In this document: piece after piece, positions 15,656-55,193 of the stretch
How the letters are laid out: every line of letters starts with the position of its first letter
How positions within the stretch are numbered: the stretch's first letter is position 1
Source: Mycetocola zhadangensis
GTDB lineage: Bacteria > Actinomycetota > Actinomycetes > Actinomycetales > Microbacteriaceae
Direction of reading: 5' to 3'
Assembly (NCBI RefSeq): GCF_003668565.1
Contig: NZ_RCWJ01000001.1
Span: 806,001 to 870,000, forward strand
Length of the DNA stretch: 64,000 nt
The notes under the pieces: model-generated
The model's input: the letters and a program-made list of their open reading frames with translations, nothing else
Told to the model about the DNA's origin: nothing
The model's database searches: none
Translations under genes and position numbers: made by a program

Positions 15656-15755
15656 GCGATCCGGGTCGGAGGCTGCTCAACGATGCAGGCCGTGGGATGC
15701 TCCGACTCGGCGGGACGCTGCGCGCCGTGGCGCACCACCGCCTCCGTGCCTTTGG

Positions 15756-16233
15756 TCGGTCCCTTAGGGCGCGTTCTTGCGACGAAACCGGTAGTTACGG
15801 ACCGACGAGTGCGGACACCGGTGCACGGCTCCGGCGCAGGGCCCGGGTGCGTGGTTCATCGGGCCCTTGGAGTGCATTCCCGCGAGAAAGCCGAACCTTG
15901 GAGACCGACGAGTGCACGGCCTGCGGTTCATCGGTCCCTTGGAGCGCGTTCTCGCGAGGAAACCGGATCTTGCGGACCGACGAATGCGGACACCAGTGCA
16001 CGGCTCCGGTGCAGGGCCCCGGTGCGTGGTTCATCGGTCGCTTGGAGCGCGTCCCGCGACGAAACGGGGCGTTACGGACCGACGGGTGCACGGCCTGCGG
16101 TTCATCGGTCCCGTGGAGTGCGTTCTCGCGACGAAACGGGGCGTTACGGACCGACGGGTGCACGGCTTGCGGTTCATCGGTCCCTTGGGGTGCGTTCTCG
16201 CGAGAAAACCGGTCGTTACGGACCGACGAGTGC
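15756..16233. repeat. Tandem repeat array, six units of about 72 or 103 bp
   Basis: Six head-to-tail units begin at 15756, 15859, 15931, 16034, 16105 and 16177 (lengths 103, 72, 103, 71, 72 and about 57 before divergence). Each opens with TCGGTCCC-like sequence, has GCGTTCTCGCGACGAAAC in the middle and closes with GGACCGACGAGTGC, so each has an inverted pair TCGGTCC/GGACCGA about 36 bases apart. The two 103-bp units carry a 31-base extension after GAGTGC. Long-short pairs give a 175-bp higher-order period. Units are contiguous without unique spacers, so it is not a CRISPR array. Several frames stay open across it only because of high GC. It fills the 15644-16355 gap; function unknown. Confidence 0.9.
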
Positions 16234-16355: not shown

Positions 16356-17036
16356 GTGAGTGAATCCATCAAGATCGACATCTGGTCAGACATCGCGTGC
16401 CCCTGGTGCTACATCGGCAAGCGCAAATTCGAGGCAGGCGCCGCCGCGTTCGCCGAGAAGGCCGGCGCAGACGCACCCGACGTGACTATCGAATACCACA
16501 GCTTCGAGCTCGCCCCCGATACCCCGGTCGACTTCGACGGTGACGAGATCGACTTCCTGTCCACCCACAAGGGCATGCCAGCCGACCAGGTCAAGGGAAT
16601 GCTCGAGCACGTCACCGGCATCGCCGAGGCCGCGGGGCTCGACTACAACTTCGACGTCCTCAAGCACACCAATACGATCAAAGCGCACCAGCTTCTGCAC
16701 TACGCCAAGGCACACGGCAAGCAGCTCGAGGCGAAGGAACGCCTGCTCAAGGCGTACTTCACCGAGGGCAGGCACGTCGGTCGGATCGACGACCTCGCCG
16801 ACCTTGCCGCCGAGATCGGACTCGACCGCGACGACGTTGTTCGGTCGCTCACCGAGGGCGAGTTCCTCTCCGACGTTCGCGCCGACCAGGCCCTCGGCCG
16901 GGAGTACGGCATCCAGGGCGTTCCGTTCTTCGTCATCGACGGCAAGTACGGCGTCTCAGGCGCACAGGAAGCAGCAACATTCGCCCAGGTTCTTGACCAG
17001 GTCTGGGCGCAACGTGAAGAAGGAGCAACGGTATGA
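16356..17036 (+). CDS. DsbA family oxidoreductase (FrnE-like)
   Basis: A 226-residue thioredoxin-fold protein. CPWC at residues 15-18 is the active site, and the insert and C-terminal pattern (GVPFFVIDGKYGVSGAQ) match the FrnE/2-hydroxychromene-2-carboxylate isomerase-like branch of DsbA. There is no signal peptide, so it probably acts in the cytoplasm on thiols or polyketide-like substrates. I chose GTG 16356; the open frame further upstream lies in the repeat-array flank. A 46-residue ORF overlaps its end. Confidence 0.9.
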   Translation: MSESIKIDIWSDIACPWCYIGKRKFEAGAAAFAEKAGADAPDVTIEYHSFELAPDTPVDFDGDEIDFLSTHKGMPADQVKGMLEHVTGIAEAAGLDYNFDVLKHTNTIKAHQLLHYAKAHGKQLEAKERLLKAYFTEGRHVGRIDDLADLAAEIGLDRDDVVRSLTEGEFLSDVRADQALGREYGIQGVPFFVIDGKYGVSGAQEAATFAQVLDQVWAQREEGATV

Positions 17037-54410: not shown

Positions 54411-55193
54411 ATGCTCATACTCAAACGATTCACCCGCGCCCAAATTCTCATCGCAGCGGTCGTCGTCCTCGGCGTCGCCATCGCATCGTTCCTCACAATC
54501 CAGGCGAATGTTGCCAGGGTTCAGTCGATCGCGACAGGCGAACAGATAGAGGGATCGAAAACCCAGCTCGCCACCGCCCTCAACGCGACAGCCGATACCG
54601 TTTCTGAGGCCCGAGCGAACCAGCAGGCCGAAGCCGTTCTGGCCGAAGCGAACCAGGTTATTGTTGCTGTGCAGGAGAAGGTAGACACCACTCCTCTCGC
54701 CGCGAGTGTCGCGTCGCTGGCCTCATACGCGAGCCATGATGGCGACACCGTACTGGCCCTCGCTGCGTCGACACAGCAGACGGCAGCCGAAACTCAGGCA
54801 GCAGCAGTCGAAGCCGATCGTCTGGCCGCTGAAGCTGCCGCGGCAGCCGCTGCGGCGGCGGCAGAGGCGCAACGAGTAGCTAACACGCCTGACGGCGCCC
54901 GCGCTACAGCACGTGCTCTCGCCCAGTCCTCCTACGGCTGGGGCGAAGCTCAGTTCTCCTGCCTGGACAAGCTCTGGCAGAAAGAGTCCGGCTGGTCGTA
55001 CACGGCACGCAACGCATCGAGCGGCGCGACAGGAATTCCGCAGTCTCTCCCCGGGAGCAAAATGGCCTCGGCTGGCAGTGACTGGGCGACCAACGCATCC
55101 ACCCAGGTGAAGTGGGGTCTCGACTACATCCAGCGCGCATACGGGTCCCCGTGTTCCGCCTGGTCCCACTCCCAGTCGGTGAACTGGTACTAA
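54411..55193 (+). CDS. Membrane-anchored lytic-transglycosylase-like protein
   Basis: A 260-residue protein. A hydrophobic segment at residues 10-30 (ILIAAVVVLGVAIASFLTI) is a signal anchor. An Ala/Glu-rich coiled-coil-like stretch (about 40-165, with runs of Ala) follows. The C-terminal 80 residues (SYGWGEAQFSCLDKLWQKESGW, then ATGIPQSLPGSKMASAGSDW) match the SLT-like domain found in secreted actinobacterial proteins; the Glu in QKESGW would be catalytic. It probably acts on peptidoglycan. The start has no strong ribosome site. Confidence 0.82.
   Translation: MLILKRFTRAQILIAAVVVLGVAIASFLTIQANVARVQSIATGEQIEGSKTQLATALNATADTVSEARANQQAEAVLAEANQVIVAVQEKVDTTPLAASVASLASYASHDGDTVLALAASTQQTAAETQAAAVEADRLAAEAAAAAAAAAAEAQRVANTPDGARATARALAQSSYGWGEAQFSCLDKLWQKESGWSYTARNASSGATGIPQSLPGSKMASAGSDWATNASTQVKWGLDYIQRAYGSPCSAWSHSQSVNWY

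Follow-up and report, generated by a model that had tools for sequence, protein, structure and literature searches.

What is the array of repeated units that occupies the gap to the left of a dsbA-like gene in the genome of Mycetocola zhadangensis (G000), and what keeps it there? The array lies in a window of 64,000 nucleotides, by which we mean the whole stretch of DNA that was analysed. A preliminary description of this window had offered three readings of the repeat, namely an RNA, a protein-binding array or a selfish repeat, and had given its units a length of 72 or 103 bp.

The unit of the window array

All six units that had been reported were found in place by TRF (score of the array 574) and by direct reading, filling positions 15752-16230. 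They also stood out in an above-chance motif count: of eight matches to ATCGGTCCSTT in the window (at most one mismatch), six are array units, and shuffled sequences gave a mean of 2.54 and a maximum of 7. The unit itself had to be redefined. Its body comprises 58 nt (57 in unit 4), and the lengths of 72 and 103 bp correspond to this body plus a spacer of 14 or 45 nt, the five spacers measuring, in order, 45, 14, 45, 14 and 14 nt. The body is a 58-bp dyad-symmetric element, TTCRTCGGTCC-N36-GGACCGAYGAA, with inverted arms 36 nt apart (Table 1); units 2 and 4, which are missed by the exact pattern, differ from it in only a few arm bases.

An assembly artefact of G000 appears unlikely from the sequence, because arrays of the same type occupy the orthologous gap of M. 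manganoxydans (G001). A coding array was considered and rejected: 72 nt is divisible by 3, 103 and 175 are not, and the long ORFs across the array are for this reason read as probable by-products of the repeat. The DsbA-like identity proposed for the plus-strand gene was borne out by Pfam. The uppS gene precedes the dsbA-side gap in G001 and G003, and the uppS-dsbA gap spans 1633 bp in G000, including both minus-strand ORFs, 386 bp in G001 and 59 bp in G003; in the latter two there is too little room for the 117-aa ORF beside the present content.

The array had been taken for the sole repetitive region of the window and the repeat for one limited to a single gap, and neither view held. Further tandem rows were listed by TRF within 1371-1523 and at 54591-54656. 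Moreover, the pattern TCGGTCCN{20,50}GGACCGA has 20 places throughout G000 (reversed control 1), 21 in G001 (0) and 3 in G005 (1), and none in G002, G003 and G004 (0, 1 and 1), the six genomes G000 to G005 all being from Mycetocola.

Table 1. Positions of the array elements, spacers and flanking ORFs in the window, and places of the type C palindromes
Feature	Position	Strand	Remarks
Element 1	15752..15809	no strand	58 nt, A arms
Element 2	15855..15912	no strand	58 nt, arm departures TCGGGCC / AGACCGA
Element 3	15927..15984	no strand	58 nt, canonical arms on both sides
Element 4	16030..16086	no strand	57 nt, left arm TCGGTCG
Element 5	16101..16158	no strand	58 nt
Element 6	16173..16230	no strand	58 nt
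45-nt spacers	15810..15854 and 15985-16029	no strand
14-nt spacers	15913-15926, 16087-16100, 16159-16172	no strand
ORF left of the array, 117 aa	15290..15643	-	without Pfam match
Second small ORF left of the array, 120 aa	14814-15176	-	without Pfam match
DsbA-family thioredoxin-fold gene right of the array	16356..17036	+	Pfam DSBA, E 1e-40
Type C palindromes	L063:269, L064:5008, L065:3160, L050:2239, L222:6095

Arm types, length and symmetry

Small arrays of elements built on the same plan are also present elsewhere between genes in G000 and in G001, and elements with other arms were found in two further Mycetocola genomes, G004 and G005. We distinguish three arm types, termed A, A' and B, which differ on both sides of the element. 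The A' arms, TTCATCCGTCAC...GGGACGGACGAA, occur in G004 and carry C7/G52 in place of the G7/C52 of type A. The B arms, TTCGGTGGTCRC...GYGACAACTGAA, are changed relative to A at pairs 5, 6 and 11, partly to G-U; in G001 they are interspersed with A units at equal spacing, one B unit lying 127 nt from the last A unit. G005 harbors one array of seven B units and another of two A'-like units, and more than one arm type coexists within G001 and within G005. The element ends read TTCRTC/GAYGAA, or TTCGGT with GACARYTGAA-like right ends (alignments A1 and A4), and one arm variant, TTCGTCGG, includes the letters CGTC. Within the arrays, the units run head to tail.

The length of the element is exactly 58 nt in 53 of the 62 elements listed for the three arm types and four species. 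This applies to 31 of the 39 A elements (seven others have 57 nt and one has 63 nt), to all seven A' elements and to 15 of the 16 B elements, the remaining one having 59 nt. A search of G000 with an open gap of 20-50 nt yielded cores of 49-50 nt (57-58 with the arms) at 19 of 20 places and of 55 nt at the other. Conservation of arms and length is inflated in these figures, because the elements were located via their arms and the A' and B scans in G004 and G005 admitted 55-61 or 57-59 nt only. Left out of the counts were a 55-nt match within an endonuclease-like gene of G004 (L181:682), a degenerate fourth unit at L049, half-units next to L049, L052 and L054, and L053, a duplicate array. The latter belongs to a stretch of at least 10 kb that is doubled at 100% identity between L051 and L053 (G000:C3 ~12.4-22.5 kb and G000:C4 ~320.6-330.7 kb), reflecting either a recent duplication of the segment or a doubling by the assembly.

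Comparison between arrays gave an arm identity of 85% in G000, 88% in G001 and 87% for G000 versus G001. The corresponding values for the interiors were 46%, 60% and 44%, and shuffled interiors reached 29%. Within arrays, the arms are 92-95% and the interiors 76-81% identical. The arms are conserved more than the interiors, with the bias of an arm-based search in this comparison, and the differences between units are structured. The distances between element centres are mostly 71.5-73, 81-83.5 and 102.5-103 bp, near 7, 8 and 10 helical turns; further spacings over the four species, 80, 85.5, 95 and 185 bp, are off phase. The first 34 junctions gave a phasing R of 0.89, which became weaker once G004 and G005 were added, and the agreement of the non-modal spacings with the modal phase has p 0.0075 if they are independent and 0.10 if each length is counted once. 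Helical phasing of the elements is therefore suggestive only.

Symmetry was analysed in 46 of the 53 elements of 58 nt (types A, A' and B), six A elements and one B element, each with a sister unit from the same array, having been excluded. The dyad register comprised 73.9% paired cells versus 31.6-45.3% when slid by 1-3 positions. In this set, 144 double-changed cells were counted versus 92 (sd 10) in shuffles, and the covariation score was 0.296 versus 0.189 in shuffles (slid, at most 0.113); for both measures none of 500 shuffles was as high. The pairs with a double change (20 versus 18.3; 61 of 500 shuffles as high) and the pair types (54 versus 51.6; 106 of 500) were unexceptional, these being the measures least prone to inflation by relatedness. 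Of the five measures, three show the two halves changing jointly from one subfamily to another, and the two least sensitive to relatedness do not. Pair 7-52 is standard in all 32 A and A' rows and in none of the 14 B rows. Within subfamily A (38 elements), the dyad register again prevailed (68.4% paired cells versus 28-48% slid) and no covariation was observed, 363 of 500 shuffles being as high for paired cells and 405 of 500 for the covariation score; pair 4-55 is non-standard in 16 of these 38 elements. Thus, the dyad register is clear, but the number of independent events behind the double changes, between three subfamilies, is small. The constant length and the agreement of the two halves suggest that something reads the mirror shape.

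Could the shape be read as RNA? The six window units, folded one by one, did no better than shuffles (z -0.24 to +1.56), and the interiors of G000 are hardly more symmetric than shuffled ones (151 versus 125 pairs; mean folding z +0.15). Units of G001 fold better than with shuffled interiors (mean z -1.7), some of them far below (z down to -5.6), which would fit a structured RNA or a transcription terminator, as would the position of 8 of 19 arrays between convergent genes. The same hand count, however, includes nine arrays between co-directional and two between divergent genes. Inspected units are not followed by a T-run, and a separate hairpin with T's was seen by eye apart from the array, upstream of L049. 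A search of Rfam 15 returned no match for the array at the gathering threshold (best E 0.82, 18.9 bits versus 59.5 needed), and covariation within subfamily A is absent, as noted above. We consider an RNA or terminator highly improbable. Of the three readings offered by the preliminary description, the RNA is accordingly disfavored by folding, Rfam and mixed gene orientation, whereas the protein-binding array and the selfish repeat stand.

Shared loci and distribution of the elements

Four loci carry arrays in at least two species, often with different arms. Downstream (3') of a DUF305 gene, arrays are present in four of six species, with three A units in G000, two A in G001, two A' in G004, where two additional units lie behind the following gene, and seven B in G005; no array was found within the 1.5-kb flanks of this locus in G002 and G003. 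The dsbA gap holds six A units in G000 and two A plus two B units in G001, and the 59 bp of G003 are without a unit. The convergent gap between an RDD-family gene and ahcY contains three A units in G000 and two A'-like units in G005, the genes of the latter being identified by eye from translations. In the gap before nucS, G001 has two A units followed by one B unit, and G004 has a single A' unit (gene identified by eye). The loci are thus common to species while the arm types differ between species. The varying number of units at the DUF305 locus (3, 2, 2, 7) is what a neutral, functionless tandem repeat (VNTR) generated by slippage would produce. Such a repeat would not be expected to hold a length of 58 nt and to keep the dyad register across three arm types, nor to occur at single-unit loci such as L061 and L182, and we regard this explanation as quite improbable.

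The 20 array-adjacent proteins scanned with Pfam belong to unrelated families or have no match. An endonuclease-like gene (REase_MTES_1575/DUF559, an assignment with Pfam scores near or under the cut-offs) lies beside the DUF305-locus array in all four species with an array there (L054, L056, L181 and L183). In G004, arrays flank it on both sides, and in G002 and G003 the gene and the array are both missing. By tblastn over the collected loci the gene was found at no other array; weaker relatives are located at L082, in another genus near its dsbA, and at L185 in G005, where no array was found.

The preliminary description had proposed to search for the repeat across the family with copy counts, its absence from all relatives, together with random-looking differences between units, being the outcome that would speak against it; the repeat was found in relatives. 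A tighter A pattern had at least one match in 27 of 249 genomes of the Microbacteriaceae, with 19 in G000 and 20 in G001, and the other genomes had 1-3 matches each, which is the range of the reversed control. The A' pattern matched in 25 of the 249, with 1-3 matches each and one in G004. The exact B pattern was found in one of 160 family genomes, G001, at five places, all at A arrays; this is an undercount, because units with a diverged right arm, such as the seven B units of G005, escape the match. An extended A pattern gave 14 stretches in the GTDB collection, seven in M. manganoxydans and seven in six unrelated organisms. No matches were obtained in plasmids and phages (blastn) or in viral contigs (pattern).

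Selected stretches of G003 (240 kb) and G002 (160 kb) contained no element with these arms, and neither did 800 kb of reversed sequence in the same scan; 400 kb of G005 contained two arrays, one of them a targeted locus. As two of six species are without DUF305 arrays and the stretches of G003 and G002 are empty, the elements look dispensable at the level of the genus. Titles and abstract openings of the papers listed in literature searches yielded no account of a 58-bp Mycetocola palindrome family, which apparently has not been described before.

Half-arms occur mainly as pairs in G000. Matches to TTCRTCGGTCC numbered 43 versus 9 in the control, 34 of them within arrays and 9, i.e. the control level, outside, which led us to reject a transposon parent in this genome. 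The corresponding counts were 26 versus 2 in G001 and slightly above the control in G003 (10 versus 4) and G005 (7 versus 3).

Other palindromes were met alongside. Type C palindromes (ATCGGTCCCAAAGGG-like, core of 51-53 nt; Table 1) are each solitary, three in G001 and one each in G000 and G002. A further palindromic repeat, GCGAAGCTTCGCTCTCGAGCGGATTGAGCGGCGCGGCAC, precedes the pre-nucS element, twice in G001 (L060 upstream flank) and in diverged form in G004 (L172). Genus g57 has elements of ~56-59 nt whose interiors vary and whose arms resemble TTCRGGTCGCAC/GTGCGACCYGAA (L110, L111, L112 and L090), one of them upstream of a dsbA homologue. They occupy four places in three of five genomes (control one place), one of the four being 36 nt long, and could not be joined to the Mycetocola family by alignment (A3). 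Three genomes of genus g77 contain a hairpin of ~53 nt, TTCGGTCC...GGACCGAA, with a changing interior (L025, L026 and L027) beside a gene end that, from its C-terminal residues, we take to be a beta-ketoacyl synthase. From their similar ends, the g57 elements and the g77 hairpin are possible cousins of the Mycetocola family.

Known repeats and a candidate reading protein

How does this family relate to known systems? CRISPR was rejected: the spacers are mostly 14, 24-25 or 45 nt long and recur within arrays, and no cas gene was found among the 20 scanned neighbour proteins. MIRU and other actinobacterial intergenic repeats form small tandem arrays at several loci with variable copy number. By that description the Mycetocola arrays resemble them in being small, intergenic, present at several loci and variable in copy number, and differ in having a palindromic unit of fixed length and spacers that vary. 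In phased arrays of operators or of sites for nucleoid proteins, symmetric sites lie at helical spacing. The Mycetocola sites are likewise symmetric, with main centre distances of ~72, 82-83 and 103 bp, but the flanking genes are unrelated among those scanned.

The attC sites of integrons carry the core motifs GTTRRRY/RYYYAAC around cassettes. Conserved outer arms around a variable, imperfectly paired interior recall such sites, and the elements could in principle serve an integron-like or other site-specific recombinase. However, many arm ends read GTTCRTC, which mismatches the attC core at the fourth base, the spacers of mostly 14-45 bp are too short for cassettes, no cassette-sized gaps were present in the inspected arrays, and no recombinase is encoded among the 20 scanned neighbours. 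Recombination sites are scarcely to be expected here, and attC was rejected.

In form, the family is nearest to the REPINs of Pseudomonas and Enterobacteria, yet without their defining RAYT and tag. In the excerpted account of PMC3116915, REPINs have two inverted conserved ends and a spacer constrained in length and pairing, and form ordered tandem clusters that repeat their flanks; GTAG-class REPs usually exceed 100 copies per genome, according to an excerpt of PMC2817692. The Mycetocola elements agree with that partial outline in being extragenic, with inverted ends, a length-constrained interior and tandem clusters, and their length and dyad register correspond to the described constraints, interior pairing being weak in G000 alone. 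They differ in copy number, the 20 and 21 places in G000 and G001 amounting to tens rather than hundreds, in being predominantly arrayed, and in occupying loci common to species. The profile PF01797 (Y1/RAYT transposase) found nothing in any of the six Mycetocola genomes and was positive in five of 14 known genomes used as control, including E. coli, and the element ends are without a GTAG tag. Because both RAYT and tag were looked for and not found, we do not file the family as a REPIN.

The CGTC-REPs, as excerpted from PMC3733652, have stems of 8-9 bp with loops of 4-5 nt, an unpaired CGTC tag at one end and mostly a CCA tail, occur mostly as head-head dimers, and are known from five other phyla. 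They are palindromic and, in the same excerpt, without a dedicated transposase, which likens them to the Mycetocola elements, as do the letters CGTC in one arm variant. The latter, in contrast, have arms of 11-12 bp placed 34-36 nt apart, head-to-tail units and the CGTC inside the arm.

The main rival to our preferred explanation starts from these likenesses. The family could be a selfish, REPIN-like miniature element whose transposase has been lost or escapes recognition, the arrays being tandem duplications that persist selfishly or as relics. The plan shared with REPINs, the CGTC-type REPs as a precedent lacking a dedicated transposase and the missing DUF305-locus array in two of six species argue for it. 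In contrast, no Y1 transposase was found in any of the six genomes of the genus, and half-arms outside the arrays of G000 do not exceed the control. Furthermore, loci within one genome have diverged interiors with the same arms, and are thus not recent copies, and loci are common to different species. We regard the selfish element as a tangible possibility that is nevertheless doubtful.

We tentatively favor, at somewhat under an even chance, a REPIN-like palindrome that is recognised in trans by a putative DNA-binding protein and kept in tandem arrays. Fixed length, dyad register, two-sided arm types, shared loci and, with the bias of the search, a higher conservation of arms than of interiors are observed; the binding protein, maintenance in place and any benefit to the host we infer. 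The element would be two-fold symmetric, with inverted arms of 11-12 bp at a fixed distance and a faster-evolving, partly symmetric interior. A trans factor, most likely a candidate DNA-binding protein acting as a symmetric oligomer, would recognise the arms, whether these are present as duplex DNA or in an extruded hairpin. Invariant length, dyad and arm sequence are what such a symmetric factor would need. Arrays would gain and lose units through duplication of an element together with its spacer, and the units of one array would be most alike for this reason. As species diverged, the elements would have been kept at a small number of intergenic positions, with turnover of the interior and of the arm type (A, A', B). 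That one locus can carry different arm types suggests a factor whose specificity or identity shifts, with the sites following, or a replacement of sites in place by conversion.

In a more far-reaching version, the elements would constitute a recognition system used by the host, in which a predicted protein binds arrayed 58-bp palindromes at few fixed loci, its specificity having shifted between species and the arrays having been rewritten on both arms; this version we hold to be unlikely. The understanding of short palindromic repeats is most advanced in those cases that a RAYT transposase accounts for. The Mycetocola elements form an actinobacterial REPIN-like family in which no RAYT was found, with shared loci and with changing arms and interiors. 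With this family one can therefore address whether it is the host that retains palindromes of this kind or whether they persist selfishly, and look for the protein that reads them.
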